From Terebella lapidaria (Eukaryota > Annelida > Polychaeta > Terebellida > Terebellidae): a DNA stretch of 64,000 nt. Positions within the stretch are counted from its first letter, which is position 1, and each line of letters opens with the position of its first letter. The stretch is from NCBI GenBank assembly GCA_949152475.1, contig OX424563.1, positions 4,437,001 through 4,501,000 of the forward strand, in the 5' to 3' direction. A model generated the notes under the pieces. The model ran no database searches. It was not told the DNA's origin and saw nothing but the letters and a program-made list of their open reading frames with translations. The position numbers and the translations under genes are program-made. This document shows, piece by piece, positions 4,460 through 48,490 of the stretch.

Positions 4460-5740
4460 TACGGCGGCTCATATCTGCCATCTGAAAAAAATCAACCAAT
4501 AGTTTCGAACACTTACAAAGTAGGCCCCCTACATTTTACGAAATACGTTCAGAACTTTACTAACGCGTTCAATACATTATGAACGCGTTCAAAACATTAT
4601 GAACACGTTCATAACATTACGAACACGTTCGAAACTTTACGAACGCGTTCAAAACATTATGAACGCGTTCTGAACATAACGAACGCGTTCGAAACATTAT
4701 GAACGCGTTCAAAACATTACGAACACGTTCGAAACTTTACGAACGCGTTCAAAACATTATGAACGCGTTCAAAACATAATGAACGCGTTCAGAACATAAC
4801 GAACGCGTTCAAAACATTATGAACGCGTTCAAAACTTTATGAACGCGTTCATAACATTACGAACGCGTTCGAAACTTTACGAACGCGTTCAAAACATTAT
4901 GAACGCGTTCAGAACATAACGAACGCGTTCGAAACATTACGAACGCGTTCAGAACATTATGAACGCGTTCAAAACTTTATGAACGCGTTCGAAACTTTAT
5001 GAACGCGTTCAGAACAAAACGAACGCGTTCAAAACATTATGAACGCGTTCGAAACTTTATGAACGCGTTCAGAACATTACGAACGCGTTCAGAACATTAC
5101 GAACGCGTTCAAAACATTATGAACGCGTTCAAAACATTATGAACACATTCATAACATTACGAACGCGTTCAGCAGCCAGTGGGATAATATAGGGCCTATG
5201 TGATACTTCAATGCTATTTCTACATTTTATTTTCATTCTTATTAAAACAATTGTTTTCAAACGCGTTCGCAATGTTCTAAACGCGTTCATAACGTTCTGA
5301 ACGTGTTCATAAAGTTTCGAACGCGTTCATAATGTTTTGAATGCGTTCATAATGTTTTGAACGCGTTCGTAATGTTCTGAACGTGTTTGTAATGTTCTGA
5401 ACGCGTTCGTAATGTTCTGAACGCGTTCATGATGTTAGGAACACGTTCATAAAGTTTCGAACGCGTTCATAATGTTTTGAATGCGTTCGTTATAATCTGA
5501 ACGCGTTCATAAAGTTTCGAACGCGTTCGTAATGTTCTGAACGCGTTCGTAATGTTCTGAACGCGTTCGTAATGTTCTGAACGCGTTCATAATGTTAGGA
5601 ACGCGTTCGTAATGTTAGGAACGCGTTCGTAATGTTATGAACGCGTTCATAATATTTTGAACGTTTTTCGCAAAATGTACTTTGTAAGTGTTCGAAATTA
5701 TTGGTTGATTTTTTTCAGATGGCAGATATGAGCCGCCGTA
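4460..5740. mobile_element. foldback element with GAACGCGTTC arrays (FB-A)
   Basis: The element starts TACGGCGGCTCATATC and ends in the exact inverse at 5740. The terminal inverted repeat is about 90 bp. Inside each end lies a 20-bp tandem array whose unit is the perfect 10-bp palindrome GAACGCGTTC plus a spacer such as AAAACATTAT: about 31 units at 4561-5170, and about 20 units in the opposite orientation at 5255-5660. A loop of about 85 bp separates the arms. A 6-bp direct repeat, TGAAAA, flanks it at 4454-4459 and 5741-5746, which shows insertion. There is no transposase, so it is non-autonomous. It resembles Drosophila Foldback in plan; the superfamily is unknown. Confidence 0.85.
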
Positions 5741-6299: not shown

Positions 6300-7270
6300 G
6301 CTAACATGCAATATTTATTTCATTTTGCTGCTCATCTGTACACGCACAACTCAACATTGAATAACATAACTGAAAAACATCCAGAAGTTCAGGATTAAAT
6401 TTCCACTCTGCACACGAAAGGCATATTTCACGAGGTGTAAATTTTGAACGGTTCGTCACAATTATGTGACAGTTCAATAGCCAGTCGGAGAGCCACGCTT
6501 GGTTAGTATTGTAGCAACACGAGAAGGAATGCTGTAGGAGAGGACCTGCAGGTACTCTGGCGTAATTTGACTCTAACAGATAGTCAACCTTCTGTCGCGG
6601 CTCTGAGAGTGTGGCTGGTGGATCTCGGATTTGGTGGTGATCCAAACCCAGACGTTTTCCAGTACGTTCAAATCAGGGCTGTATGCCGGCCACAACATTG
6701 TCATGACGTCATGGCTTCCGAGCCAGTGTTGGGTACTCCTGGCTGTGTGAGGAGAAGTATTGTCTTGCTGGAAGATCACAAATTGCTCACGATCGCCAAA
6801 AATGTTCTCTCTGAATTGGAACAGGGAGTTTTCCAGTGTATCTTAAACCAATCGCGTTCATTGTGCCCTGAGTCCGCACAAGGTTTCCAACGCCATGCAT
6901 TACAATTGCATCATCAGAACACGATTCCTCCACGTTTTAAGGAGGGTTGCTGACGATGTTCTTCGGGTCATAAGCAGTGCCCACGCGACACCAAACACAG
7001 ACTTTACCATTCGTGGCAGTCTTATTGGAGAAACTTTCCTCTAAGGTTCCCTTTACTCCAGTTCATCACTTTACTAAAGTTGTTATCAACTGTCCACCGT
7101 TGGATGGCACGTGCCCAGGCATACATCGCTGCCGGACTACCACGGAAATGAGCTTGATACACGGGACTTGATACCAGCCTTATTCTGCCTGAACATAGAA
7201 TATTAGGCAGTGTTGTACAAATAAAATGCCAAAACGGCAAAACCAGTTGCTTCAATGTCCTTATTCTGAG
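6300..7270 (-). pseudogene. decayed Tc1-like transposase (DD34E)
   Basis: The minus-strand frame at 6573-6779 reads QQDNTSPHTARSTQHWL, then WPAYSPDLNVLENVWVW. These are the second Asp and final Glu motifs of Tc1-family transposases, with exactly 34 residues between the D of QDN and the E of LEN. Upstream on the same strand (about 6950-7200) other frames carry matching Tc1-like segments, including one near RWTVDNNFSKVMNW and another reading VCVWCRVG. The coding sequence is therefore split by frameshifts and stops and no intact ORF remains. Terminal inverted repeats were not found, so the limits are approximate. Confidence 0.8.
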
Positions 7271-7342: not shown

Positions 7343-8420
7343 CGGAAGCTCTGAAAGGACATGGTGAAAAAAAAATATCTCGTATATACGACATATTATC
7401 TCGTATATACGACTTGTGTATATCTCGTATATACGACATATTATCTCGTATATACGACTTGTGTATATCTCGTATATACGACATATTATCTCGTATATAC
7501 GACTTGTGTATATCTCGTATATACGACATATTATCTCGTATATACGAGTTTGTATATGTCGTATATACGACATAATCTCGTAGGCCTATATACGACTTGT
7601 ATATCTCGTATATACCGTATTGACGCGCATATAAGCACATGTCCTTATATGTGAGAATGTCCTCATATTCGGACAAAGAAATATGTGAATTTTAAACAAA
7701 AATGCAATCAAAACATCACCCACATATAAGAACATTTGTATGTTAATGATTCCACATTGTGAAAAATTACACGTCTTTCGGGCAAAAGCATTGCAATTTT
7801 ACAAGTGCAGCATTTGGACATTAAACATATACTCTTGTGGCCTTATAAAATTATATGAAATTAAATTGTATATGTCAAATGTGTGTGTTATCATGGTTAT
7901 AGGCTTGGAACAGTGTAGCACCCAAACAGTTATGAGTAAGTGTGCCAGGGATTTAATTAGGTCCCCATTCTTTAGTTTATGAGAAGTGTTCTTATGTCCT
8001 TATATGCGCGTCAATACGGTACGACTTGTATATGGATCTACATCGCTGGCATCTATGGAAGACCACTGAGGAAATGCGAATTGCCAGTTCATTGATAATT
8101 ATGTCGTATATACGAGATATACACGTCATATATACGAGATACACAAGTCGTATATACGAGATACGCAAGTCGTATATACGAGATACAAACAAGTCGTATA
8201 TACGAGATAATATGTCGTATATACGAGATATACAAGTCATATATACGAGATACACAAGTCGTATATACGAGATACGCAAGTCGTATATACGAGATACAAA
8301 CAAGTCATATATACGAGATAATATGTCGTATATACGAGATATACAAAAATCGTATATACGAGATAATATGTCGTATATACGAGATATTATTTTTTTTCAC
8401 CATGTCCTTTCAGAGCTTCT
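7343..8420. mobile_element. foldback element with TCGTATATACGA arrays (FB-B)
   Basis: The terminal inverted repeats share GAAGCTCTGAAAGGACATGG and a following A-run. The inner arms (about 7375-7612 and 8100-8385) are inverted tandem arrays of units containing the palindrome TCGTATATACGA. A 7-bp direct repeat, GTAAGTA, flanks it at 7336-7342 and 8421-8427. A separate MITE (7615-8019) is nested in it, so the original was about 670 bp. No transposase is present. Long open frames through the arrays are a by-product of the repeat. Confidence 0.85.
7615..8019. mobile_element. TA-flanked MITE nested in FB-B
   Basis: Both ends read CCGTATTGACGCGCATATAA in inverse orientation, followed by a looser match. 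TA dinucleotides flank it at 7613-7614 and 8020-8021, the target duplication expected of Tc1/mariner. It is 405 bp and non-coding, and it interrupts the FB-B array, so it is younger than that element. Confidence 0.85.
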
Positions 8421-21550: not shown

Positions 21551-24500
21551 ATGACGTCATCAGATAGCCGGTTTGGCGTCATAGACTATGTGGTGTTCGC
21601 CGTGACGATTGCTGTGTCTTTAGCAGTCGGACTGTTTTTCGCCTTCAGAGGCGGCCAGAAAACCAACGAACAGTATCTGGTCGGCAACAGGAAAATGAAA
21701 CTGATACCCGTAGCTGTGTCTTTTCTTGTCAGCTACCTGTCTACTCTTGGTATGTGCACAACTACGCACTGGTCTGAATGTTTGCAGACATGTTTTAGTT
21801 TCGTTGTTTTCCCTTGGATGTGTCCAATTAGCAACAATAATATATATAATTTAAATAATAACAACGTATTGTGGATCACATTTCGCATTAACATCTTTGT
21901 ATTTATGATGATACGTAGAAATATCTTTGTGTTCTCTCGCGAGGGAGGCCCAAACGTTCCATCGCGAAACTATCCCCTCGATTATTTTATTTGAGAGATT
22001 TTCTTTAGGACGCCGTGAAGATGTGTGTTGATCGTGAATGACAATGGAACAAAAAAAATTGGAAAATTTCCTTTTTTCAGACATATTGGGTAACCCGGCA
22101 GAAGCGTACGCTTACGGTACTCAGTACATGCTGTACTCACTCGCCTGTGTACTGGGAATGGTGATTGGTACTTTCGTGTTTGTACCTCTGTACTACCCGC
22201 TCCAGATCACCAGCGTGTTCGAGGTGACTACGGGCGCTGACAACATTGGTCTGAGGATGAATACTTAATGATTCGATATGTACACTATAGAATGCAGGTG
22301 AAATACACGTTATTATATTCCGATATTAGTATTGTTATTCACGATGAACAACACAATGTTTTTGACAGTATCATCGGATGCGTTTCAAGTCGAGAGTTGT
22401 GGAGAAATTCGCTGTCTGCTTAGCAATCTGGACAACGGTACACAGTAATTCCAGTTTGACTATATACATTACTGGTGAACAGGGTTGCAATTCACATATT
22501 ACTAGCTACATTGAGCATGCACTCTACCTGGTTTTCACCCGTGTATCTAATTTCAGTTGTTGTTCACATCCATTCTGATATACTCACCTTGCATGGCGTT
22601 TGAGACAGGTAATAACCCAGCACATAGGGTGGGCTAATAAAGAAGGTCCCGAAAGTTGGACAAAACATGAACATAAATAAGCAGCGCATCTTGTCTTCAA
22701 TTTGACTTTCAATTATCCCAGGTGTACCTGAAATGAATTACAAACAATAAAATAATGCAAATGATCAATGGGAATGTCAATTAGCATGACCAGAGATGAA
22801 TGATCGATGAAGATGTCCGATGTCTTGACTGATCCTCACAGTTCTGGATCAACCCAAGTGTCCTGATTTCTCATAGGTCAAACACTCAGTAGCCCAAAAT
22901 CCCTGCATCAATTTGAATACATTTATGTTTTAAGGTGCCTCCTCATGGAAGTGATCTTCAAGTTCATGTTGTGTTCATGTTGACAAGTGATGGTTCATAA
23001 TTCCTCCCTTCACCTTTGGAATAATGTTCAACGAGCCATATCTGTTCTGGGCTGACCTTTGCCATGATGAAATTGATACATGGAAATGACAAGTTTTGAC
23101 ATTTTTGAAGTTGTAACTCCGTGATTACCAATTTATTATGAAACGTGTTCTCGGCGGTGTATCAAGCAGTGGTGAAATTATTTCACATTTCTCAATTTTA
23201 ATAGGATTTTTACTCTCGATATCTGTATATCTGGATAAGTTTATGCATATCATTTTCGGTACCCTTTCATTAGCCCACCCTGTATGTAATATACTGATAC
23301 ATACCCGCCTCGATCATAATGTTGTGTAAGAATAGCGAGCATTTACTAATAGTAATAGATGTTACCATTGTTCTCTTGTAGTAGGAAACTGTCGTGCTTC
23401 TGATCATATACCGGTACATGTAGTTGGAAATGAAATATTCCTAACCGATTAACAAATCTCATTCTAACATACTTAAACGTCTAGGCCTACACACACGCGT
23501 GAAATTGTCACTGAGTTTGGTTCCTTTTTGTTGCTCTGTGAAAGGTACATGTAAATACTAAATTTGAATATTTTCGCGCTAAGATCTGTATGTATTGTTT
23601 TTCAGTATCGGGATGTCCCACATGGGTTTCAATGCTGATAACTGGCGTGGCCACCATCCTCTATACAAGTCTGGTGAGTAGTAAAACACAGATGCCTTAC
23701 TGACAAACAAAAACAAAGAGTTTATATAGGTAAATACTACAGAAAAAGGACAGGTGATATGGTGGCCTGCAAAACATTGTATCAACAAATATTGTTATAT
23801 AGTATATATACGTGTAGTAATTAGTACTGATATATTGATATTATCGATTGTAGCTTTCTCTCCTTCTATTCTATACTGAAAAATAAGCTTCGTTCGTTAT
23901 CATGTTTTGCCAGGGTGGTATGCAAGCTGTGGTGTGGACGGACTGTTGCCAGGCTGGAGTGATACTCGTGGCATTGATCATCATCCTTGTGAAGGTCAGT
24001 AAACGGCGTGATAAACTCGTCGGGAGGGTGGGCAGGGTAAATTGTACTACATGTATCTTTCGAACCGAGAAGCTGCTGTCGTATTTTCTCGCCGTTTTCT
24101 TATTGAATCGTTCTGCTGATTCGGCGGATGAATTAGCACTATTTATGCTTTTCTCAAAATCTGTTCCCATAGTACTCAATTTGTCATCTAATTGTGTAAA
24201 AGGATCACATTTTCGTGTGATTTAGGGTTTGGCTTGAATCGCTTCGAAATTGAACAATGTGGGGTCCAGATAAATAACTTGGAATATCCCGAACAGGTTT
24301 CTAATGGGGAATGATCGAATATACATACGTTTGATATGTAACATGATCATGTGGGGTTCATATATACGGCGTTTTCATTTGACTTTGAACTTGCCCTCCA
24401 GTGGCTTTAAGAGATAATAAAGGACGTCTATTAAATGATCAAAATTTGAATATGAACATTGCTCAGATATATACCACGGTCTCTAATTATGAACATACAT

Positions 24501-27500
24501 GAAACATACTTCACTGGCCTTGAAATCGCTATCAGCACTGAGTGCTTCGAAATAAGGAGTTTATTTTGTTCAAATAACTGTAGATTGACATGCAGATCAA
24601 AGGTAGCGTTTAGGCTTGTATAATACATATATACATTTATAATCGAAGAATATTTGTGTGACTTTCAACTTGACCTTTGATGACCTTGAGTACTAAGATT
24701 TACGGATATGTCCACCCTAAAATTTTGAAGCATCATATGAACACCAGATGCTTCAATAAATGGCTTAGACTTGTGATATGGATGCATATAGGAAACCATA
24801 TGTGGTGCAACTGTGGATAATCTTGAACTTGATCTGAAAGGATATTGAATGCACAATTTCATAGTTGGTCTGCCATTCTATCCAAATCTGATCATATGAG
24901 GTTAGTTTTATACTATATTCTAACTCGTTCACACTGTTTGTCGCTGATATTTTTGTGATGCTAAATGATATCGTTCTAGAACTTGGCATATCACCTGGGA
25001 GTCAAACGGCAATTTGCCACCGAGTTTCAGATTTCCACTCCGAAAATAGAAAAAGTCGTGCATCTTTTGAATTTTGGTCATACATTTTCGTCTGGTTAAT
25101 GACGCTTCTCGACTTCCTATCACGTATTATTCATTCGCCAGGGGACGCTGGAGGTAGGAGGAGTGGCCGAGGTCTGGAGAATTAACGAAGAATGGGGACG
25201 AGTCAAGTTCTTCGAGTAAATAAATGAAACACTTTATATTGCTAAATGCTATCGCCATATATCCGTAAAGGCCCCATGTTTATTGCTTAACTTGCTTAGC
25301 ATGTAATATACTTTGTTTCCAGCTTCAGCTTGGATCCCACGAAAAGACTGACGTTCTGGTCGGTCGTCGTTCTGAACTCTTTGAACTACGTTACCATAGT
25401 GACGGCCCAGCCGAGTGTACAGCGATTTGTTGCTCTTCCCACCATGACACGTGCCAAACTGTAGTGTCTTTTACTTATATTATTTTTTTTATTATGTTAC
25501 TATTAGTCAGTGAATTTTTCTATGTTTAGCATTTCCTCTGTATTATATGGTTCCTGACACTAAGTAATGTAGAATTATAAACTGCCACCAGGTCGGCGCT
25601 GCTGGCTATGCCTGGGCTTATCGCATCCGGGCTGCTTACCTGTGCTTGTGGTATCACGGCCTTTGCTTACTATACCAAGAAAGGCTGTGATCCAGTGACA
25701 TCCGGCAAAATATCTGGACCAAACCAGGTAAAACAACATCCTGTGTGTACATGTATAAACGTTATTTATTGGTATCACCAATAAATACTTAGTTCTGGTT
25801 AGTTCTGGCTGGAATTGGTCAGATCAAGACAAGTGCCTGAGTAGAGAACGGGTCATGAGAATTAATTATGTACTACACAATACAAAATATCATGTACATT
25901 GTAGATCACATCCTGTCGAGAATCCGGCATTTCCATGTTAGATCTAGTTGTTACTTTGTAATGGATGAGTTGGTTTGTTAACTTCAGATCATGCCGTACT
26001 TTGTGAAAGATGTTTTGGTTTGTAAACTTAAGATCATGCAGTACTTTGTGGTGGATGTGTTGGTCTGTTAACTTTAGATCATTCCATACTTTGTGATGGA
26101 TGTGTTGATCAGTTAACTTTAGTTCATTCCATACTTTGAGAATGGAGGTGTTGGTCTGTTATCTTCAGTTCATTCCATACTTTGTGATGGATGTGTTGGT
26201 ATGTTAATATATCTCATTCCATACTTTGTGATGAATGTTTTGGTCTGTTGACTTTAGATCATTCCACACTTTCTGATGGATGTGTTGGTCTGTTAACTTT
26301 AGTTCATTCCATATTTTGCAATGGATGTGTTGGTCTGTTAACTTTAGATCATGCCTCACTTTGTGATGGATGTGTTGGTCTGTTAACTTTAGCTCATTCC
26401 ATATTTTGCAATGGATGTGTTGGTCTGTTAACTTTAGATCATGCTGTACTATGTGATGGATGTGTTGGTCTGTTAACTTTAGTTCATTACATATTTTGCA
26501 ATGGATGTGTTGGTCTGTTAACTTTAGATCATGCCACATTTTGTGATGGAAGTGTTGGTCTGTTAACTTTAGCTCATTCCATATTTTGCAATGGATGTGT
26601 TGGTCTGTTAACTTTAGATCATGCTGTACTATGTGATGGATGTGTTGGTCTGTTAACTTTAGATCATGCCTTACTTTCTGATGGATATGTTGGTCTGTTA
26701 TCTTCGGTTCATTCCATACTTTGTGATTTATGTGTTGGTCTTTTAATTCTAACTCATTCCATATTTTGCGATGGATGTGTTGCCCACGCTGTAGATTATG
26801 CCGTACTTTGTGATGGATGTGTTGGTCTATACCCTGTAGATTATGCCGTACTTTGTGATGGACGTGTTGGTCTATACCCTGTCGATGATGCCATACTTCA
26901 CTTTGTGATGGACGTGTTGGTCTTTACCCTGTAGATTAAGCCGTACTTTGTGATGGACGTGTTGGTCTATACCCTGTAGATTATGCCGCACTTTGTTATG
27001 AATGTGTTGGTCTATACCCTGTAGATTATGCCATACTTTGTGATGGACGTGTTGGACATCCCAGCTCTTCCAGGCTTGTTCGTGGCTTGTCTGTTCAGTG
27101 CATCTCTCAGGTGACAAAATCTATCCGATGATAATAATGTCGATACCTATTTGCTGGGACTCTTCTCCGTTTCGCAGATAACATTGCATTTCGACATTCA
27201 GACAGAGTTTCATATTTTAATTGTGATTTGCATGTGATCTTCCAGTTCCGTGTCATCGCAGTATAACGCGTTCTCAGCAATGATGTGGCAGAATTTCCTT
27301 CGGCATAAGTGCCAACATTTGCCTGATGAAAAACTAACCACGATCACCAAGCTGACCAGTACGTCTGTAACTTCTGCGTACATTATATTCCTGTGTGAAT
27401 TCGTGGGTTGTGTTTCTGTTGGTATAAAAATATGTCCATGCACTGATGAAGTGTTTCCATCGTCTTACAGCGGGGGTGTTTGGTATCGTTGCCGTCGCAG

Positions 27501-28976
27501 GGGCATTCGTTGTCATGAGAATGGGCGGGACACTGATCCAGGTAACTTCAAAATATCTGATGCCAGGATGCAGAAACACTGGTGCAGATAAATCTTAGAA
27601 TTCTAATCTGGGAATGTTGAAACACTGGTCCAGGTAACTTTCAGTAATCTGATCCGGGTATGCTGAAAAACAGTGATCCGGATCATTTCTAGAATTCTGA
27701 TCCAGGTATGATGAAACATTGGTCCAGGTACCATAGCGGCTGAAACATCTTTAGCATAAATACAAAGTTTGTATACATGGATAGTCAAAGCGACATTTTA
27801 TTGTAACGAATCAGGAAACGCATCTAGATGTATATGTGCATATATTCTGGGTTTGCAGATATCTTTCACTATGATCAGCACAGTGTCAGGTCCTTTGCTA
27901 GGAATGTTCCTCATGGCTGGGGTGTCGACCAGGGTAGGACCGAGGGTAGGTACTGGTTGTGTCGGATTGTCGATCAACTTTAAAGTAATAAATATTCACT
28001 ATACCTGACGATACGAGCATGATGTTTCTTGTCAAGTCTAGTTATTATTATGGCAAATGTTTCCTGGCATTCAGGGAGTGATGGTTGGCATGGTGATGGC
28101 TCTGGCCCTGTGTGGTTGGATTGGGTTCGGGGCAATGTTCTCGGGCTCGCACGAACCCCCACTGCCTGGCCCCACCAACAGCTGTTTGTTGCCTAGCAAC
28201 GAGACCACTACACCACATTACTTAGGAACCACATACCCCGTGAACATCACCACCGATGAGAGCCCACTCATCGATAGCAGGTCCAATTCCGCATTTCTGC
28301 TCCACTTAAATGTGAAACATTACAAATGCAATATTATTTATTCTACAACAAAATATCTACAATCCCCACAGATCGTGGCTGGAGTGGATGTATTCAGTAT
28401 CATACTTCTACTACTCGACGATAGGTGTCGTTGTGGTAGCCCTCGTGTCGACCATATCCAGCGTTATCCCGCGTACGTCACGAGCTTGATTACTAATAAA
28501 TCAGAGTTGCAAACTATAGTATTCTTGAATATCGAACACCTATAACTGACAATGCTTATTTCATCATCCCCGTAGACTGCGAGGTCCCACAGCGGGTGCC
28601 CAAGAAGCACCTGTTCCCGTGTGTCAGACGATGTTGTGGTCTGGAGCATGAAGACGGGTCGGACAGCAACAAGGTAACCATGACTACCAGATCAAATATT
28701 GACCAATTATTGCCATCGTTTTAGATTATGAATTCATAGATGTTATCATTTATTATTTTTGCTCAGGCTGTTGGTGTTAATGGAGAGTTAGACACACTGC
28801 TTGGCATGGTATAGATCACCATTTTTATTGTTATTTTTCTACCTAATATTACTATTATTGTCGTTGCAAAGGCATATGGTCAAAGTTGTTATTTTTTCGT
28901 ATTTCCCTGTCAGACTGGAGGTGAAAGCACTGAGCAAGACTTGCTGCAAAAGTCTCAGTCCAATGACAACGTATGA
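21551..28976 (+). CDS. SLC5-family transporter 1, SMCT-like (complete, 18 exons)
   Basis: Plasma-membrane sodium symporter; by family a carrier of lactate, short-chain fatty acids or similar monocarboxylates. Exons: 21551-21749, 22081-22223, 22369-22437, 22557-22608, 23606-23673, 23914-23994, 25142-25215, 25323-25460, 25592-25727, 27025-27110, 27246-27358, 27471-27541, 27859-27945, 28075-28280, 28372-28472, 28576-28673, 28767-28808, 28914-28976. All introns are GT-AG and all phases agree, giving 608 aa, the size of human SLC5A8. Diagnostic blocks: DYVVFAVTIAVSLAVG (TM1), GGMQAVVWTDCCQAG (SLC5 signature), KKGCDPVTSG, IMPYFVMDVL, LPGLFVACLFSASLSSVSS (TM8, serines at the usual Na2 site), MYSVSYFYYSTIG. 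The tail ends SNDNV, a possible class III PDZ ligand. Start 21551 was chosen over 21509 because family N-termini are short. Intron 9 and exon 12 carry boundary-derived repeat arrays. The exact substrate cannot be told. Confidence 0.93.
22627..23282. mobile_element. TA-flanked MITE in intron 4 of SLC5 gene 1
   Basis: The ends pair around GGGTGGGCTAAT (left) and ATTAGCCCACCCTG (right), with TA at 22625-22626 and 23283-23284. Length is 656 bp, with no transposase. Tc1/mariner type by target site. Confidence 0.65.
25975..27024 (+). repeat. 45-bp array derived from the exon 10 acceptor of SLC5 gene 1
   Basis: About 23 tandem units of 45 bp fill intron 9 up to the true exon 10 (27025). Each unit holds a copy of the end of the intron (for example TCTGTTAACTTTAG) and then the first bases of exon 10 (ATCATGCCGTACTTTGTGAT, then GGATGTGTTG, encoding IMPYFVMDVL), followed by a GT. 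The last units, with CTATACCCTGTAG spacers, are closest to the real acceptor. Because 45 is a multiple of three, one frame stays open for 247 codons (26191-26934); that ORF is an artefact. Confidence 0.92.
27531..27730 (+). repeat. 46-48-bp array derived from the exon 12 donor of SLC5 gene 1
   Basis: The exon 12 end and its donor (CACTGATCCAG then GTAACTT) recur at 27577, 27623, 27671 and 27717. The five starts, 27531 included, are 46-48 bp apart. Copies at 27623 and 27717 keep a CCAGGTA donor consensus; the others have changed it. The array lies in intron 12. Confidence 0.88.
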
Positions 28977-33458: not shown

Positions 33459-36400
33459 CTATAACACAGTCAGTGTTGCCTTTGACTCTGCATTCCCTTC
33501 AAACACCTGCGAAAATAATGTATTAACATACGGTAAATATTTTAAACACAAGAACACATAAGGGTGTATTATAACGACATGCGTTTTGAAGACTTTGAGA
33601 ACATTCTGGGGGGAATTTGGCATTAGTATTTAATACAGAAGGGTCGATAAACTGCCCCATCATCCTGAATATTACAATATTGTGAAACTACTGGACAATT
33701 GGGCAGACTGGACTGAAATCGAAATTTCATTCGATAAAGTCGATCATCCTGTATATTGTAAAACTGGGAATACACACCACGGGGGTAGTGTCAGACATGA
33801 GGGAGTCCGGCCGTGATTCCTCCTCGACCCCGAAACGTCCGCGGAGAAATGGAAACAACAGCTTCTTTGGCACACGACCGTCACTACCAAACCCTGCAAC
33901 ATAGCAATCACTGCAATTTCATCATCAGTAATCAAGTACCAGAAGGAGACTATGCCTATATGTCGGACCTTTTCAGTGTGTAAACCTCTATTGTCTGTAC
34001 CTATTCAACATACCTCACCGATCGGTGAATATCCCAATGAACGTCTTTGAACAAATTTGTTAGATATAAATACATGACAGGGAGATGTAGGGTTCGGCGA
34101 CCCCACAATAAAGAGGTAGACCCCATTACTGGAGTGTCACCGCATTGTCTCATTAACCTGCCAGCACGTTCACGCCATATAAACCGTGGTGACACTACTG
34201 TGTAGCCACCACGTCATAACGCTACAGAAATGTTATTCTGAACTACGATTACCAAGATATATGTAGTATTGTGGATACCTGATGACACACAGTATCATAA
34301 AATCATAGCCAATATATATGTACGACACATTAGAACATATACCGTACCTGGTATGAGGCTGTACAGATTAGCTGAGATCAGTACGACGGCAATAGCGAAA
34401 GGGTGATAGTAGAAGTATGATATTGAATAGAACCATTCCAGCCCACTGAAATAGGGAAAATGCGTACCGAAAATGCCAAGATATGTTGTGTTATTACCGA
34501 TTTATAAATGATGAATCATGACAGTGGAAACATAAACTTCCTGTAAATGAGAAAAGTAGCAATAAGAAAATATACCTTTTAGCCGCAAGTTTTGTGGTTT
34601 CTGATTCTGCGGGGCTCAAGGTGACTTGGTCAATGTGTACACTGAATTCTGTGCTGAATAAATGCGTGTCAACCATGTCTGAAAGCCAAGATATATTTAT
34701 TTATACAGGTACTTGTACCAAAATGAACTCGCAATCTTTCTTAATGATTCTCTATGATTTCGAAGACTGTATTTGATGGGCTCATGTATTTTACCAATAG
34801 ATGAAGGTGTACCTCATTTTCTTCAACATCACTATCATACATTCGTACGGTCACGTTTATGCTGTACCGGGTAGTTGCTATACGTCTGAGTTCAATATGC
34901 TAAATGCGGAGGTCTCACATGTTACATCCTCGCCAGCACGGTTAGTGACGGAGTCGTTACTATGGAGAACGCATCTATGGGTGGGACCTTCCAACATCGG
35001 AGTTTGTTTGCCCCAGATCTGTGCCCCAAATATCAACCAAGACGAGAAGGCAACTCCAGTCAGTATGGCTGCTAGGGTGCTCTGTGCTCGCAATAACAAT
35101 GATGTTTTTTGAGAAAAAAACAAAACAAAATTAGCCCAAGGGCTAAGAAAGGTTACCATACAAAGTTTTACATCTTATATATTAGCCGTTTTGTCCCGTG
35201 ACTGTGAAAACAAGGTCAAAGGTCACAAGAATATTCAGCATATATCATTTCATGTCCACAATTGATTCCCATCCTGTCAAGATATTAACCATTTTGTGCT
35301 CTGACCTTGGAAATGAGATCAAAGGTCAAATTCGAAGTCATGAGAATATTCAGCATATATCACTTCCTGTATGTCAACAATTTTTTATTCCTAAGCTTTA
35401 AAGTCGATAATAAGCGAGGTTTTAGCCATTTTGTGCTCTGAGCTTGAAAGTGAAGTCAAAAGTCAAATCCAAGGTCATGACAACATTCAGCATATATCGT
35501 TTCCCATATGTTCACTATTGATTCCCAAGCTGCAAAGTCGATAATAAGAGATATATCAGCCATTTTGTGCTCTGGCCTTGTAAATGTGGTCAAAGGTCAA
35601 ATTCAAGGTCAAGACAATATTAAGCATATATCATTTCCTATATGTGTTCAATTGATTGCAAAGCTGTAAGGTTCGATAATAAGCGAGATATTAGCCATTT
35701 TGTGCTTTGACCTTGAAAATGAGGTCAAAGGTCAAATTCAGGGTGATGACACTCTTCAGCATATATCACTTACTATATGTTCACAATTGGTTATCAAGCT
35801 GTAGAGTTGATAATAAGCGAGATATTAGCCATTTTATGCTCTGACTTTGAAAATGAGGTCAAAGGTCAAGTTTAAGGTCATGACAAGATTCAGTATATAT
35901 CATTTCCTATTTGTGCACAATCGGTTCCTAAGCTATAAAGAAGATAATATGCGAGATATTAGCCATTTTATGCTCTGACCTTGAAAATGAGGTCAAAGGT
36001 CAAGTTCAAGGTCAAGATAATATTCAGCATATATCACTTCTTATATGTCCCCAATTGATTTGTAAACAGTAAAGTCGATCATAAGCGAGATTTTAGCCAT
36101 TTTGTGCTCTGACCTTGAAAATGAGGTCAAAGGTCAAATTCAAGGTCACGATAATATTCAGCATATATCATTTGTTATATGTCCACAATTGATTCCCAGT
36201 CCCTAATCGCAATGTTAGGTGAGATATTGGCAATAGTGTGTCCCATTATAAAGCATAGGAGAATTTAACATGGGAAAGTCCTATATGGGCCAAGTTTGGG
36301 CCAAATGGACCACTTCGAGCGATTCAAGCACAACAAAACTTATACACATCTCAGGAGTACATATGAGGAGTGTTATGTATCAAAAAGAAAAAAGGTTACT

Positions 36401-39400
36401 GAACAGATATTGAGAAAATGGCCGCCAAATTCCAAAATCAGGTATTTTTTGTCAAAAACGGCCGCTATTTTGAAAAAAATGCGAAAATCGGAAAACTAAA
36501 AAAAAATCTTTCCTGGAAATATTTTTAGGTATTTTTTTTGCAAAATTTCAGAAAAATTCGACCGTAAACTTTAAAGATAAAAAAATGAACGACGGACGAC
36601 GGACGGACGACGGACGCAATGCCACGGCAATAGGTTATCGGACCAAAGGTCCGGTAACCTAAAAATACAGCTACACAAGATGCAACGTTATATTGAGACG
36701 TCGAAATTACCCTAGCCCCCGGCCTGGTACACAGTCCTCCCAGGATCCCGACGCCCATAAGAGGACCACTCAACACGCTCATCACACTGTACGCCAGCTG
36801 TGACAGGATACAATACACGTACAGACGTTTGTAATAGATACGTGTATGTATCGAAAATATTGTATAAGTAGGAAGGACCTATCATGTCAAATAACAGCTT
36901 GATAATTATGCCAAGCATTAAGTTCTACCACTATTCATGAATAATTAGTGTTCAATCACAACTCAACTTTCTCACTGAGAATGGGAATAATCCACATGTG
37001 AGCAATGCTTTCAAACATCAAAACGGACCTGTATGAGAGTTCCACCCATCTGCATCAGGAGAAAAGCTGCCCCGATACTCAACAAGCCGACAACCAGTGC
37101 TGAAACATATGACAGAATATATTCATATATTTGTCGGTGTCGCTTGGTTTCTTGATACCATTTACTTTACGACATCATATGTGTAGTATAGAATACAATA
37201 GGTATATCTCCCATTTTCACAACTATTACAACACCATCAGTGTGGGATGTTGACACTCGAGCTAGTGTGCGTACTCGAGAGTTTGTTGACGCTGGTCTGA
37301 GTACCGACAGGGAGGTGTGACAGTCTATACTGCAGCACGTCACCCCACAGCACAGCCGCCATCGCGTTATAGTTGGATGATATCGAACTGTCAACGGTAC
37401 ATCACATCAAATAGTATCAGGTCTCTTAGAGTTTTACGAAGTTTACAGTGTGTGTCATCGGTGTTTATATGACTGCAAAGTTTTTCAGTATAGTTTTCCA
37501 ATGATTCAACGACACATTTGGTATCTATAGCGCGAGAATGAGTCGCCAATTATAGGACAAATTGCGTCATTGAATGAGAAGCAGACGAAGTATTACAAGA
37601 ACCTGCAGGATATTTCAACAGTGGCAGCAGGTTATACCTGAGTGTGGCGCTGAAGATAGCTGCAATGAACAGACCAGGCAGACACGGAACATCGAGCACA
37701 TCCATCACAAAATACGGCAGTATCTGCACGAAACAAACATGTATCTTGGCGTAGTCTACGATCTGTGTGGCCAGTTCTGTAATAATGAATTATGTGTGAT
37801 TTTTGCTAGAACAAAAGAGAGAGAACAATTCCGGATTAGCTTCAACACATTTTCTTATTCCGGAATATATCCGCTTGCCACACCATAAATTTATTCTCTT
37901 CACCATACATCACTTGCGTTCATGCTTAGCTAACATGTTTAACCGTAAGTAGATAAATTAAAATAAAAAGAATGGATAAACTACAATTTATCCATCAAGT
38001 GGTATGGCGTATAAAACAACATACCTGGGTGGGCTTTAGTTGCCCGGATGACAACGGGTCACACCCTTTCTTGGCGTAGAAAGCGAAAGCAATCACTCCA
38101 CAGATACAGGTAAGGAAACCGAAAGTGAAAAACCCGGGAATCATCAGCAAGGCTGATCTGACGGGGACATCAGTGAAATATAAGTGTGAGTAGTGAAGTA
38201 GCTGCGTAGATTTGTCAAGGTCAGGAGTCTAGTGAAGTTGGCCAATATCAGAATAGACGTTAAACATGATGACCATCTGAGTTGGATCAAAGTTGGGAGG
38301 GGTCATCGAGTTCTAGATAGTATCTCAATATGAATGCACCAACTTCTTGGCCTGTCCCACGGAAGACAAGGCGTTGTATCGCTGCAGGCTGGCTTGTGCC
38401 GATAACATAGATGCCCACAAAACAATATCCGCCACAGCCACAGACCAAAACGTCAGCCTCACCGTCGGATCGAAACTGAAACTGTACACCGCGGCAAAGA
38501 ACCAGTATTGATCTTGAACGTCTCATAGCATTTTCAAATCAATTATATACTATATTGTGTTTATGATTCACATTCCAATCTATAATATTTTATCATATAA
38601 TATTTCGTATATTGAGACATATCCTCATGTCAAATCAGACCCGACATACTCGAAGAATTTGATTCTGCCCCACTCTTGGTTCAACTCCCAGACTTTCTGG
38701 ACACCTCCTGCATCAAATGTTCCCTGTGAAGAGAGGGCATTGTTATAGTAAAGAGTGAACAAATATATAAACATTCCATGTCAAATAGCTTTTGTTGTGG
38801 ACGTGGGGCGTTTATATTTTTGTTCAGTATATTGAACTAACTTGAGTGCAAATTTACATATGACACATTTTCTGAATATTGCGTACTACGTCGATACACT
38901 ACATATCCAACATATTTTCATAAGTTTGTCATACATGGGATGGAGTGGTTGAACTTGTCACATGTAGTAGATGTCGCAATGAATGAGAAGTGAGTACAGA
39001 CAGGAATTGATTTGATGGGGGAAAAAACAATAGACAAAGGGAGGAGAAACTCTTCTATATGTTCATGGAAAAACTCCACCTTGATGACGACAGCTAGGAG
39101 CCCTGCCAGAATGACGACAGCTTGGAAGACATCAGTCCACACCACGGCCTTAAGTCCGCCCTGTGTGATAGGACAGTCAAGCATTAGAGGACAGGCAGGC
39201 AAATATAGAGATCATACTCTCAATTCTCTAGTGACTACCGAAGTGATTCCGCTGGCTATGCCATCGATACTAACCAGAGCAGTGTAGACACAGGCTGTGG
39301 TCCCACAGATAGTGATAGAAGCCCACACGGGAAAACCCGACACTATGAGGGAAGGGGGGGGGGGGTCAGGTAGGATTATAGCACATTCATTGAATATTCA

Positions 39401-40439
39401 TATTGGTGGTACAGAAAACTATGATTGATGAATACACACGGAGTAGTGGAAAGAATGTATCATTTTGACATGTCATCATATGCTTTTGAACATAATAATT
39501 TTGTGAACAATGAGGTTATAATTACCCGCCTGGAAAGCCACACAGGGTGCAAATATAAGTATACCATTCAGAACGACCTGTTGAAGTATAATATTTATGA
39601 TTCCATACATTTTTATATCCAAATACATCGTCGGTGGGACATATACGAAGGAATGAGCCATTATTATGGTATTACAAATATAAAGGATGAATAGTGTCCA
39701 CTGTACCAGCATAAGTAGGGATATCCCGGCACAGGTCAGCTCCAGATATCGCTCCCCAAACCGCATCCGGTAGTACTATAGCAACAAAAACGTGTGAAAT
39801 ACTCGCACAAGCTTCTGCATTGTGGGGGATATTTTGGTGACTTGTCGAATATTTTAACTTGATTTTCACAAGATGAATAAATTTGGCTGTTTCCTGTTTA
39901 ATGAAAATCTACACTGTCCAAAGTTTGGTCTCATGTTCAAGTATTATGAAACCATCCTTTCGTTGTGAAAGCCAATTAGGTAAAATTATTGTATGACAAT
40001 GAAGTTTTCAGGACTGACCTCGTAGACGCTTGTGATCCGGAGTGGATGATAGAGAGGTACAAACAGATATGTCCCGCCCACGATACCGGGCACCAAGGCA
40101 ACCAGAAACATCATGTACTGTGTGCCATAGACGTACACCTCGGCGCAGTTACCCAGCACACCTGTTGCAATGACGACATGGGTTAAGGTCGTGACATTTG
40201 GATAAACATCTTGATTTTCGATTCACAAAAATTTACTGTTAAACATTAAAAACCTCCCAGTGTCAAAACTGAGAGACTGAGTCCTGCAATTTTACAATTT
40301 TTTCACATTATTGGAGACTAGAATGATAATGACTTTGAAACCACTTTTCTGGATTCTAAATACATGTAAATATCCCAAAATACTAAATAACAATGCTACA
40401 TTAATCACGACTGTCACAAGAAGCCAGTGTTTCATCTTG

Positions 40440-40494
<55 letters not shown>

Positions 40495-40839
40495 CGAATT
40501 GTAACTCACATATACGAGTAATACAACCAAACATGTAGACAAAATGGAAACAATTCGTGGACTGCACTAAAGAAAAAAGTTTCTGTACAAAAGTGGGGCC
40601 CACAGATCGAAATAATTTTGCTATAGACACACGGAGGACTTACCGATGGTTGAGAGAAAGGTGACGAGGAGGCTGACGGTGACGGGTAGGAGTCCCAGCC
40701 GGCCGCTCCCGCTCAGGTACTCGCTGTTTGAGGCCTGACTCCGGCCACGGACGGCGTGATACAGCCCGATAGCGAGCGACACCGCCAGCGTGACCGCGAA
40801 CACGGCGTAGTCAGCCGCTCCAAAACCGCGCCGCTCCAT
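33459..40839 (-). CDS. SLC5-family transporter 2, SMCT-like (complete, 18 exons)
   Basis: Paralog of the gene at 21551-28976, convergent with it; by family a sodium-coupled monocarboxylate symporter of the cell membrane. Exons, 5' to 3': 40644-40839, 40019-40161, 39707-39775, 39526-39577, 39275-39342, 39080-39160, 38650-38723, 38344-38481, 38025-38157, 37638-37723, 37275-37387, 37030-37097, 36711-36797, 34919-35081, 34576-34678, 34348-34445, 33778-33893, 33459-33506. Phases all fit; 611 aa. Blocks: DYAVFAVTLAVSLAIGLYHA, GGLKAVVWTDVFQAV (SLC5 signature), KKGCDPLSSGQ, ILPYFVMDVLDVP, LFIAAIFSATLSSISS (TM8), FYSISYFYYH. The C-terminus TLTVL fits a class I PDZ ligand, as in vertebrate SMCT1. The loop before the last membrane segment is split into two exons here (donor at 34918 inferred from phase) but is one exon in gene 1. 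The start at 40839 gives the same short N-terminus as gene 1. Confidence 0.93.
35131..36661 (-). mobile_element. ACCGGACCTTTGGTCC-family element, copy X3, in intron 13 of SLC5 gene 2
   Basis: Ends TAGCCCAAGGGCTAAG (35131) and TATCGGACCAAAGGTCCGGT (to 36661). The inside is about eight tandem units of 125-140 bp. Each has AGGTCAAAGGTCA or a near match, then TTCAAGGTCA and GCATATATCA. Perfect AGGTCAAAGGTCA occurs at 35213, 35722, 35856, 35990 and 36124. Non-coding. Confidence 0.75.
40441..40493. repeat. (TCAA)n microsatellite in intron 1 of SLC5 gene 2
   Basis: Perfect tetranucleotide run of about 13 copies. Confidence 0.95.
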
Positions 40840-42053: not shown

Positions 42054-43431
42054 GTATAGTATGGTGGCTGATAGCGTCCATCTGACAATCTCGCTCCCTC
42101 GCGCCGAGAGAGCGAAGCGAGGTAGCGAAAGAGCGATACGAGCGCACGAGACAGCGATGCGAGGGAGCGAGAGAGCGATGCGAGGGGGCGAGAGAGCGAT
42201 ACGAGGATGCGAGGGAGCGATGCGAGGGAGCGAGTGAGCGATAAGATATTGACATAAATCCACCCCGCTTCCTCGCATCGTTCTCTCGCTCCCTCGCACT
42301 CTCGCTATCTCGCATCGCTCTCTCGCTCTATCGCATCGCTATCTCGCTATCTCGCATCGTCCTCTCGCTCCCTCGCTCTCTCGCAATCTCGTTCTCTCGC
42401 TACCTCGCATCGCTCTCTCGTTCCCTCGTTCTCTCGTTCTCTCGTCCTCTCGCAATCTCGTTCTCTCGCTACCTCGTTCTCTCGCTCTCTCGCTCCCTCG
42501 CTCTCTCGTTCTCTCGTTCTCTCGCTACCTCGCATCGCTCTCTCGCTTTCTCGCTCTCTCGTTCTCTTGCTCTCTCGTTCTCTCGCAATCTCGCTCTCTC
42601 GTTCTCTCACTCACTCGTTCCTTCGTTTCCTCGTTCTCTCGCTCATATGACAGGTCACAATAAATTAATCCGTTCTAACGATAAATTTCTCGTTATCACG
42701 GTTTTTTTTCTTTTGTTCAGATGCTATTTTTTTTATTCGTTACGACGATATTTTTCGCGCACACGAAAAATAATCACGTCCACTCTGCTGCATTAATATT
42801 TATACGTGTATACCTACCAGTGAATATGTTCAAATATTATTTATTGCATATGGTCAAATATGACCAGTTAATCCTTTACGACAAAACTTGAATATGTATC
42901 TCCCTGTACATATTCAAGCGCAAAACATATGACGTTCAATACCGAAATAACGATTTATATAGATTTATATAAATAACATGAATAAATGTTGTTGTTTTTT
43001 ACCATCTATTTACCTATATACCCCTTCCCTTCCCTTCGCACAACGCACACAATAATCGATGTCAACAAATTATATTTAAAATTATTTATTGAACGTTAAT
43101 CATACAACAATTTTGTGTCAATTGTGACAAAAACAAAGCTGTAATTGAAGTGAAAGAATATATCTCCGTTCAAATAACATTCTGACATCGGAACTTACAT
43201 GATATTTCTGTAACTACTGATATTTAATTAATATTCTCAATCTGAATAAAATATGTAAGATAAGATAAGATAAGATAAAATTTTATTTAACGTCGATATA
43301 AAAAGTTCAACAGTAACATTAGCCATATGGCTATTCACCGACAATGGGATAACAAGAATGGTTATATACAATGATATGAGAAAATATACAAATGAGATTA
43401 GGACATGCCATCAATATTATCAAATGTATGC

Positions 43432-46400
43432 TTACAAATCATTCAATTTACATAATATGCAATAAGAACAGGTACATTTTATGGGCTGCCAGGCATTGAG
43501 TTTACTTTTAAATATCTGGATTGACCCTGATAGCTTTAATTCATTACTTAATGAGTTCCAAAGTTTACTCCCCTGATAGACAATACTGTTATACCCATAT
43601 TTCACACTATTGAATTTCCTGAGATTAAGTTGCAAAGCATTGCGTGTTTTATGATTACTATTATACAAAGTAAAGAGTTCCTGGATATACATAGGTGAGA
43701 ACTTATTGATTGCTTTGTATATTTCAAGTAAAATACATCAAAGTCGATTGACATAAAGTAATGGTTGGTGAGCCTTTACCCTCAAACATTCATACGTAGG
43801 AAAATGGTCATTAAAAACATATCTTAGTGCTTGTTTTTGGATCCTTTCTACCTTCAATGTATTTCCCTTCCCACAACAATGCCATACAATTGCACAATAT
43901 TGAAAATGCGAGACTATAAAAGAGTGAAACAGAATAAGTTTGCTTTTTTCACACAAGCTCCATGATAATCGCCTGAGAACATTAAGTTTTCTTCCAGCTT
44001 TCTGACAGATTTCATGCAAATGATATTCAAAAGTTAACTTTTCATCAAGTACAACACCCAATAGTTTCACTTTTGTTACAATTTCAATAATAGTATTGTC
44101 AATAACTATATGATCCTGTGGATTTACAAATCCTTTACCAAATATAATATATTGAAATTTTGAGGTATTTACCTTCATATTGTTATAAGAAAACCATGCC
44201 ATCATTCTTTCAAGTACACTCATGAGATTTGTTTTCACCATGTCAACATTTTCTCCATAACAACAGACTGTACTATCATCAGCATAATTGAAAATATCAC
44301 ATAGATTGCTAATATACAACACCAAATCAATTGAATGAACATTATAGCAAAAAGGACCTAAAATAGAACCCTGTGGAGCACCAATATTAAGTGGTAACCA
44401 TGTACTATGGAAAGGATACAGTTTGACTCTATGTAACCTGTTACGGAAATATCTTAACATTAGTTTACAAGAGTTGTTATCAACAACATATGCATGCATC
44501 TTAGCAATAAGTAATTCATGGGGCAATCGATCGAATGCTTTGGACAGATCAGTAAGTATAGCACCAGCATATTGATTTTTGTCCAACTGACATTTTACTG
44601 CTTCTATAAATCTCAACAAAACGCTCTGACAACTGTAGCCTTTACGGAATCCAGATAAATGTTCAGAGAAATAATTATCAAAATATTCAGAAATTTGATC
44701 AAACATAATTTTTTCGAAGAGCTTTGAAATGCTACTGAGAATGCTGACTGGCCTATAATTTTCTTTTAACAATGCATCGCTTTTTTTAAAAACTGGCATA
44801 ATTTCTGCATTCTTCAGATAAGAGGGAAATGTACAAGTATCAATACACTTATTTAACAAAAACATGTATGGGTAACAAAGAACATCAGCACCTATCTTCA
44901 AAAGTTTTGGAGGTATCATATCATACCCGGTAGCTTTTGCCGGGTTCAATTTGTGCAATTGTTTACGCATGCTCTCAACCGAAATCCTCTTAAAACCGAA
45001 CTGTTCATTGTCATTTTTATACGACAAAATATGCTTGATACTATCATGAGACTCATATTGTTTCACAATATTTTGTATGACAAATGGGTCATCATCAATA
45101 TAATTATCGCTTCTGTCCGACATTGTGTCATCACTTGCGACCGTGTTATAATAATTGTTTAGAAGTTCACAAACAGAAGCACCATCATTTTGTATCGTTC
45201 CATTTTCAGATAAAATTATGGAGGTTTGATCACCTTTGTATTTGTCTGAAATCAAAGGTTTGATTGTTTTCCAAAAGGTTTTCCCATCCTGTTCAATTTT
45301 GCAATTTTTCAGTAAATAGTTGGACATACTTTTCTTGCGAAGCCTTACAACAAAATTCCTCTGCTTTCTATACAAATCCCAATACTGAGTACTTCTATAT
45401 TTATCAAATTTCCGTTTCAGCATATTCTTGTAATTGATAGCTTTTCGTAATTTGTCATTCATATATGGAACCTGTGCATTTCGCACAGTCTTTTTCTTCA
45501 GTGGGGCATGTTCATCGATAATAGTCCTCACTAAAGAATTACAAAACCAGTAAGCATCGTCAACATCATCAAATATTTCAGCAACATGATAAGGTGCTGC
45601 ATCCAAATCATTACAATATTGGTGCTCATCAATTTTTTTGTAACTACGATATGTGATCACTTTGGGTTTTCGGTTGGGAACATGCAGTTTAGTGGCAAAA
45701 GCCACCAGGTGATGGAAATCACTCAAGCCTGAGTCTAAAACAGTAACACCCTGTAAACGCTTATAACTATTGCTCAAAACAACATCAATCGTGGAAGGAT
45801 TAGCACTTTTAAAGCATGTGGGAACTTTTACAATATTTTTGACACCAAAAACATCACAAAAATTTGTTAAACTATGCTCTTTCGTAGAAAAATTAATATT
45901 TAAATCACCTACAAGAACAATATTTTTGAAATCATTGCTTGCAGTCGCAAAATGTTTTTCAACAATATTTATAAAATGTTCCAGTTGTGCCTTCGGTTGC
46001 CTATAAACACTTGAGAATAACCATTTTTCCTGATTGATAATAACTTCAAAACACATCATCTCTATTCTCCCATGAGCACATTCATTATATTCAAGGTCGG
46101 ATCAAGGTCGGATTGTGTACAATATCATTTCTGATACAGGCCATTATTCCACCCATATTGGATTTGACATCACATCGATAAACTTTGAAACCATCAATAT
46201 TAAATTGTCCACTAGGAAAAGTATCATCTAACTTGGTTTCTTGGATGAATAGTATGTCAATCAGACCATTAAGCAAAATATTTCTAAGCGGATCAAACTT
46301 GTGCCTAACACTATTTATATTGATGTGAGCAATTTTTAAACATTTTTGAAATTGCTTATAAAATGAAACAAGTTCATTCATTTCTTGAACATCCTCATCT

Positions 46401-46738
46401 ACACTACTCAAATGGCATGCATCGTGTTCATTATCAGATACATTGACTTCAATATTACCAGACTTATCAATATCATGCATACTATGATTGTTAGATGTAA
46501 ATGTAATGTAACTATTCTCTTCAGGACAAGAATTGATATTTGCCTCATTACTCATATTGACATCAACCATTTCGACTGCAACATTGTTATAATCACTATT
46601 ACTCATATTATCACTTTCCTCACAGTATAATGCAGCAAAGCGATTAAAAATATGTACATCATCTGGATAAAAAGTTTGCAAGAAACATGAGTCTATGTTA
46701 GAGTTTAAATTAGAACCGGCAATACCTTTGCCTACCAC
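43432..46738 (-). pseudogene. LINE ORF2: AP-type endonuclease and reverse transcriptase
   Basis: 46091-46738 holds the endonuclease N-part (LKIAHININSVRHKFDPLR, then FIQETKLDD with the catalytic Glu). The frame then shifts near 46075 at a small local duplication of AAGGTCGGAT. The 773-residue frame 43738-46059 continues the endonuclease (LVGDLNINF; DSGLSDFHHLVAF) and the RT: YRPVSILSSISKLFEKIM, LTDLSKAFDRLPHELL, GAPQGSILGPF, and the catalytic NYADDSTVCC near residue 595. Another shift near 43735 leads to the C-terminal block at 43432-43692 (SIVYQGSKLWNSLSNELK), typical of the end of CR1/L2 proteins. Two frameshifts make it inactive but it is otherwise well kept, so it is probably young. Confidence 0.88.
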
Positions 46739-47220: not shown

Positions 47221-48490
47221 TACAGACTCGGATACAGATGTGAGGATTTTATGGTTAATTCCTATGTATTAATATTATAAATTCGTCGGATTACATGTGT
47301 ATTTTACAGGCCCTATATATCATATTTGTACATGGTTCAAGCATTTAGATTTCGCTAACGGCATGTACAACACATACATATAATCTGCACATGCTCCGAT
47401 CCTACAGCCCAGAAGATTGCGTAAGAGAGCCTGGTGATTGGATAAGCCTCGCTACCACGTGACAGTGATATAACCAATGAGGTGACTTGCAGCGGATGAA
47501 GGTGTAGACTGGGTGGAGGGGGTGAGGGTAAGGCGGCTAGGTGGGAGGTGGTGGTTCACGGATGAGCATACAATACACGTACTTCAAATAACACGATATT
47601 TATCACCGTTTATCGTGATAGCACGATATGGAATTGTAATTTTCGAAACAATATAGGACTCATATTGCATAATTTTACAACTTAATCGCCTATGCATACA
47701 GTGGTTTTCAAAGAATACACTGTTAAGTAGAAACTATGATGTAAATTTCAGATCAATATAATCTATTTTATATGTCCTATTTTTAGATGTCCTACAAGGA
47801 AACTGGTATGACAGGGGCGTGTCCAGGGAAGGGTGGGTACAGTCCGTACGTGCTCCTTCCCTTCCATTATTTCTGTACACGCCCATGAGCATTGTAATAG
47901 CACTGACTATGTCGAAACCTTTATATCATTAAAATATACATATAAAAGTTAGCTTCGTAGATGAATGTACATGTACATACATGGTCGTATGTATGGTTAT
48001 ATTAGAACAAAAAAAAAATCATCGTGCGAGTTATCAAAAGTGCGTTTTATTTGTATGCTGAAATCTTTAGTTAGTTTCTAATACTGCATACCTGGTACAT
48101 GAAAATTAGTTTCTGCATACGAGACAGCGAGAGAACGAGGGAGCGAGAGAGCGAGAGAGCGAGAGAACGAGGGAGCGAGAGAGCGAGAGAGCGATGCGAG
48201 GAAGCGAGGTTGATCAATGTGAATTTCGTATCGCTCACTCGTTCTCTCGCATCACTTCCTCGTTCCCTCGCATCGCTCTCTTGTGCACTCGCATCGCTCT
48301 CTCGCTACCTCGCATCGCTCTCTCGTTCCCTCGCATCGCTCTCTTGTGCACTCGCATCGCTCTTTCGCTGCCTCGCTTCGCTCTCTCGCCGCGAGGGAGT
48401 GAGATTGACGAATGGACCTTATCAGCCACCATAGTATAGAGATATTGAATTACACGAAAGATTATTAAAACCCGATTTAGTTACTAAAAG

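Follow-up and report, generated by a model that had tools for sequence, protein, structure and literature searches.

An SLC5-type gene of the annelid Terebella lapidaria (gene 1) carries, directly upstream of one of its exons, a minisatellite whose units repeat the edge of that exon. How did such an array arise, and what does splicing make of so many copies of one acceptor? We addressed both questions in the 64,000-nucleotide stretch that holds the gene (the window) and in related loci of the same genome.

Anatomy of the intron 8 array

Gene 1 (21551-28471, plus strand) was delimited by homology to a second SLC5-type gene, gene 2, by a genome search, by tblastn in five paralogues and by splice sites; 14 homologous exon blocks were placed, and one further block lies at 28593-28667. 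The model probably lacks some short exons and its exon numbers are provisional. An earlier sequence-only reading had correctly seen the array, in front of an exon that it counted as exon 10; this exon is number 9 in our model. Exon 8 (25592-25727) ends in phase 0 with ...CCAG/GTAAAA, and the array makes up the final 1075 bp of the 1297-bp intron 8 (25728-27024). The real exon 9 (27025-27110, IMPYFVMDVLDIPALPGLFVACLFSASL) is followed by the donor CAG/GTGACA; all three features lie on the plus strand.

TRF reported 24.5 copies of 45 bp at 25952-27055 with a score of 1165, and an array of 1100 bp with such a score is not a chance product. Aligned to the unit, the sequence shows 23 full units between 25988 and 27024, with a partial one ahead of them at 25950 and the real exon behind them from 27025; the opening 30 nt of that exon form the 24th copy. 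The earlier description of about 23 tandem units, with the real exon as the last of them, was borne out. The unit, of about 45 bp, joins the end of the intron (15 nt) to the opening 30 nt of exon 9, and four of the 23 units deviate from this length (46, 44, 42 and 50 bp). Its intron part is GTCTGTTAACTTTAG or GTCTATACCCTGTAG in most units, and its 30-nt part is identical or similar to the start of exon 9, ATTATGCCATACTTTGTGATGGACGTGTTG, which encodes IMPYFVMDVL. This general content agrees with the sequence-only reading, which had given the unit a CTTTAG end, the same ten residues and a following GT and had noted that individual units differ at the acceptor and in the coding part. CTTTAG precedes 12 of the 23 units (CTGTAG precedes four of them and the real exon), the exact peptide is encoded in two (units 19 and 20, the others being altered), and GT follows the 30 nt in 21 (all except units 3 and 18). 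An AG stands before 19 of the 23 unit starts, the exceptions being units 6, 17, 18 and 21. Open frames of 248 and 239 aa span the array, owing to the 45-bp period, whose frames can be stop-free. A whole-genome DNA search with the array stretch, which ignores very common words, returned the array itself as its sole match.

The units fall into two blocks, both read on the plus strand. The distal block (25950-26794; partial unit 0 and units 1-18) mostly has the tail GTCTGTTAACTTTAG and a first codon ATC, TTC or CTC. The proximal block (26795-27024; units 19-23) mostly has the tail GTCTATACCCTGTAG, and its first codon is ATT in four of the five units, as in the real exon. Unit 18, in the distal block, is transitional and has a CTGTAG tail.

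With boundary-spanning units that continue into the real exon and with AG and GT kept at the frequencies given above, the array is a "mirage" minisatellite, a kind already described in lancelets. The amphioxus mirages (Adh3, the globins BflGb6 and BflGb9, PGBD5 and troponin C) likewise consist of tandem units across an exon-intron boundary, at the 5' or 3' edge; as here, AG and GT are kept in many units and clusters of the array turn over blockwise (PMC3087553, PMC3902484, as far as the available parts of both texts go). Their units measure 10-72 bp in Adh3 and 150-160 bp in the globins, according to the same portions of these papers, the second of which describes the lancelet PGBD5 mirage and cites those of Adh and TnC. 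Two differences concern BflGb6: it has 3 to 6 copies against 24 in the annelid array, and its boundary units are described as excluded from homogenisation, whereas the exon-side units of gene 1 carry the newer states of the exon (PMC3087553, same portion).

Origin and growth of the array

Contig C9 carries five SLC5-type genes (genes 1-5), and gene 2 lies inside the window on the minus strand (33802-40824). Gene 1 is closer to genes 4 and 3 (80 and 78%, respectively, in exon 1) than to gene 2 (about 57%). Intron 8 is found at the identical place and in the identical phase in all five paralogues, with lengths of 1297, 301, 123, 216 and 72 bp in genes 1 to 5. When intron 8 of genes 2-5 was checked for the array, none was found, and the array is confined to the gene 1 copy. 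The proposal that the expansion followed the duplication had been made from gene 2 alone; it now gains from three further array-free paralogues, and for two of these the similarity to gene 1 exceeds that of gene 2. The exons of gene 1 are open, with dN/dS values against genes 2-5 of 0.17, 0.09, 0.16 and 0.11; the underlying dS values of 1.3-2.5 are near saturation, and these ratios cannot distinguish constraint that predates the array from constraint that acted later. As a side observation, genes 1-4 have an intron between exons 12 and 13 that is absent from gene 5 (L056).

Two other accounts of where the array comes from were considered. Assembly errors are common in tandem arrays, and the repeat could in principle be one of them; most units, however, differ from each other, the array occupies 1.1 kb within a contig of 41.5 Mb, and arrays of the same kind exist at other loci, so that we regard an artefact as very unlikely. 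The other account makes the array the source of intron 8, in line with published models that derive introns from duplicated segments carrying AG and GT (PMC3087553 and, for intron gain in Drosophila, PMC2891723, in the parts of these texts available). An intron gained by tandem duplication was rejected, since intron 8 stands at one place and phase in five paralogues, four of which are array-free, and this leaves the idea next to no probability.

Unit positions that differ between the two blocks suggest an order of growth. At column 3, all 18 distal units share C with genes 3, 4 and 5, and T occurs in the exon and four of the five proximal units. At column 24, 16 of the 18 distal units share T with genes 2, 4 and 5, and C occurs in the exon, three of the five proximal units and gene 3. 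Column 3, and for the most part column 24, thus show an earlier state of the exon preserved in the distal units, which implies that copying of the proximal block came after the change in the exon. Column 6 shows the opposite, the distal majority state T (11 of 18) being derived and G being common to the exon, the proximal units and four paralogues. Proximal units are nearer to the exon than distal ones (Mann-Whitney P 0.004), and a smooth gradient of unit likeness to the exon is absent (P 0.19). A four-unit block has itself been duplicated, with 94% identity at a shift of 180 bp, and this points to more recent turnover. Taken together, the unit sequences support amplification of the exon edge at least twice, as an old distal block and then a younger proximal one.

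Splice sites and coding potential of the units

Weight matrices were built on 59 acceptors and 59 donors located in genes 1-5, which are AG and GT partly by construction, having been sought within 9 nt of the homologous place. The acceptor matrix has little discriminating power: among 1942 other AGs, 19% reach the 10th percentile of the real sites. The real acceptor of exon 9, excluded from its own matrix, scored 3.2 bits, the fourth lowest of the 59. Upstream acceptors ranged from -5.0 to 6.9 bits, and seven of the 23 (units 1, 5, 7, 19, 20, 22 and 23) reached at least 3.2 bits; units 20 and 23 match the exact 23-mer of the real acceptor. The units had been described as a graded series of splice sites, which fits the range of scores and overlooks that ten of the 23 have one identical 20-nt tail. 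The donors of 22 of the 23 upstream units scored 3.0 bits or less, a level at which at most four of the 59 real donors lie. Unit 5 (26169-26198, plus strand; 30 nt, FIPYFVMDVL) is the only one with two fair splice sites (acceptor 6.9 bits, donor 5.5 bits) and is the best pseudoexon candidate. Reading from each of the 23 upstream unit starts met a stop within 7-42 codons, because the TAG of a later acceptor, or the TAA of a distal tail, lies in frame.

Compared with the consensus of their subfamily, the units show 46 non-synonymous and 15 synonymous codon differences and no stop. The non-synonymous share of 75% is close to the 77-79% given by random single changes (18-20% synonymous, 3% stop). 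Parsimony changes at codon positions 1, 2 and 3 number 13, 7 and 20 (P 0.042), some of them being silent changes of the live exon; this bias is a weak hint of coding constraint and counts against a neutral reading, as does the absence of stop codons within the 30 nt (none among 61 changed codons, against an expectation of about 3%). The codon changes appear to be mostly neutral.

Two uses of the units in splicing have to be weighed against these results. As coding microexons, single 30-nt units would be spliced in and would add ten residues in frame ahead of a transmembrane segment. Their phase 0, their length, the AG and GT that most of them retain, the codon-position bias and the fair sites flanking unit 5 are all compatible with such a use; apart from unit 5, however, the units have donors that are weak or absent, and the codon changes lack clear constraint. 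Adjacent units are moreover 15 nt apart, which is too short for an intron, so that inclusion would be limited to single units or units lying far apart. The in-frame pseudoexons of the sequence-only reading fare poorly on these counts, and we consider a coding role of the units highly improbable. Its other suggestion, decoy acceptors, holds better: judged on sequence, the upstream acceptors are plausible decoys, and the idea is testable. Some leakage to them is likely because the real acceptor is weak and no better than seven of the 23 decoys; such leakage may not be neutral, which counts against the neutral reading. It is a further step to propose that the upstream acceptors compete in a regulatory manner, sending a steady share of transcripts into nonsense decay, with array length setting the output. 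The high-scoring acceptors and the stops that end all 23 frames would agree with this, and so would the VNTR in intron 18 of human ABCA7, an intronic minisatellite with a donor in its unit, for which single-unit retention in about 2% of transcripts, with a frameshift, and a correlation of length with exon 19 skipping and lower expression are reported (PMC5954066). That VNTR differs in its 25-bp unit, in lying on the donor side and in having measured splicing and a disease association, and the portion of the paper available does not state an exon-edge origin. Against the regulatory proposal, the stops are automatic for a 45-bp unit ending in TAG and are hence no sign of design; the acceptors have decayed in four of the 23 units; and AG changes amount to 2.0 per site versus 2.1 elsewhere in the intron part, which argues against maintenance of decoys. 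Lancelet mirages, for which length variation was also shown, are likewise reported to leave regular splicing undisturbed (PMC3087553, PMC3902484, in the parts available). Altogether, regulation by decoys seems rather unlikely.

We therefore consider, with good though not complete confidence, that the array is best explained as a tolerated, near-neutral exon-edge (mirage) minisatellite that originated after the gene duplication and grew in at least two rounds. A 45-bp segment across the acceptor, with 15 nt on the intron 8 side and 30 nt on the exon 9 side, would have been tandemly duplicated in gene 1 after the split of the paralogues, a timing given by their comparison. Growth would then reflect ordinary repeat turnover, probably through slippage or unequal crossing-over, and the states shared with the exon suggest that the younger block is a copy of the new edge, made after changes in the exon and its intron tail. 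The last copy presumably remains the working acceptor, since no other copy runs on into the rest of the exon and its donor. The upstream acceptors would be leaky decoys at most: with no donor of their own, reading from them would run into an in-frame stop and give a nonsense mRNA.

Exon-edge arrays in other SLC5-family loci

Gene 1 contains a second exon-edge array (27530-27730, plus strand; 46 bp × 4.3), which the sequence-only reading had missed, as it had the known status of the array type. It repeats the end of exon 11 (27471-27541) with the donor CAG/GTAACT, and four later GT sites in it reach at least the 10th percentile of real donors. Each of its units resembles two related halves of about 23 bp apiece. 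A TRF scan of 22 other loci (171.5 kb, comprising 18 other SLC5-family gene regions and four pieces of genes 3-5) revealed four more exon-edge arrays, all on the donor side: one in L042 (1904-3170; 60 bp × 21.3), two in L047 (2245-2501, 54 bp × 7.3, and 6433-6824, 70 bp × 3.6), both loci in contig-strand coordinates, and one in L050 (4024-5185; 41 bp × 28.2). The last lies at the donor of the exon 9 homologue of another SLC5 gene and repeats the exon end with CAG/GTAAAG in most copies; 22 later donor-like sites within it reach the 10th percentile of real donors, and one more does so just beyond it. In 23 loci, one acceptor-side and five donor-side arrays were thus found, so that both the 5' and the 3' edges seen in mirages are represented. 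When the first donor of each array was taken as the real one, as homology suggests, read-through to later donors led to a stop in all four cases tested in gene 1, in all four tested in L050, in the one case in L042, in five of seven in the first array of L047 and in none of one tested in the second.

Are exon edges hotspots for such arrays? We counted arrays of at least 2.5 copies and a period of at least 10 in 23 loci (187.5 kb), among them genes 1 and 2. The count used 197 exon intervals, the initial 200 less three in L047 that the array itself had created; three two-copy arrays that lie within 30 bp of an exon and do not overlap it were left uncounted. Among all 34 arrays, six straddle an exon edge versus 3.15 expected, which is not significant (P 0.10; with the founding array left out, 0.21). 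Exon interiors contain none of the 34, versus 3.45 expected (P 0.03). At a threshold of at least 1.8 copies (56 arrays) there was no excess at edges, with 6 versus 6.16 expected. Of the 17 locus-specific arrays, those with a unit not seen elsewhere in these loci, six straddle versus 1.41 expected (P 0.003; with the founding array left out, 0.015); their absence from exon interiors, versus 1.77 expected, is not significant (P 0.17). Restricting these to periods of at least 40 leaves six of eight straddling (P 0.0005, or 0.002 without the founding array), and all 14 arrays with such periods give P 0.03 (0.08 without it); in the tests with this limit one array was entered with a period of 54, and of 106 in the other counts. 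The locus-specific and period filters were chosen post hoc, and gene 1 was sampled because of the original finding. Six additional loci, kept outside these counts, contained no straddling array, with exon intervals available for two of them and one strand read. The simple reading is that arrays seed anywhere, those inside exons perhaps being purged and those at edges tolerated, since splicing can conceal the latter; a true preference for edges is possible. The wider claim, that minisatellites in this annelid arise preferentially at exon edges, that very many genes hence carry surplus splice sites and that array length sets a steady rate of nonsense mis-splicing varying among individuals, is unlikely.

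Two other systems resemble these arrays in part. Human genes in segmental duplications have internal tandem repeats at exon boundaries that differ between paralogues, and these repeats are reported together with new introns or altered exon lengths in the transcripts, whereas intron 8 of the annelid gene is old (PMC2812944, in the part available). Earthworm metallothionein genes, also from annelids, have intronic minisatellites and surplus copies of exon 4 that are missing from the final transcript; the available portion of that paper does not describe units spanning an exon edge, and it reports one inverted exon 4 copy (PMC12783039). In the open-licence literature searched, exon-edge minisatellites have so far been reported in lancelets and human genes. 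Our search of open-licence PubMed Central found no report of an annelid one, which does not establish absence from print. Six arrays in 187.5 kb of annelid SLC5-family loci suggest that the phenomenon is not restricted to lancelets and human. Such arrays put near-identical splice sites, spaced 41 to 70 bp apart, into natural competition, which makes choice of the correct one measurable; annotation errors are likely to stem from them as well.

Other repeats were seen in passing. A 134-bp tandem unit forms arrays in L046, in gene 2 (window 35280-36198) and in gene 4, and its sequence occurs in further loci, as an interspersed array-forming repeat. At 4546-5663, 7375-8386, 42105-42644 and 48120-48388 of the window, adjacent pairs of short-unit arrays have units that appear to be mutual reverse complements.

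At the level of the genome, a search for the erythrocruorin-linker family, which is presumably annelid, gave seven matches; the 14 controls were silent, and as all of them are prokaryotes this silence carries little weight. A lancelet origin of the genome, considered because of the mirages described there, was rejected, since the linker-family matches and the mitochondrial gene order both indicate an annelid. A search for the GFP family gave no match in the genome, a weak negative, the controls being equally silent. The mitochondrial contig C438 (15,973 bp) reads on one strand cox1-cox2-cox3-nad6-cob-atp6-nad5-nad4L-nad4-nad1-nad3-nad2, an order that we take to be the annelid ground pattern; cox1 was identified by family search and the other genes were named by eye from translations. 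A second COX1-like gene is present near 44633-46450 of the 61-kb contig C417.
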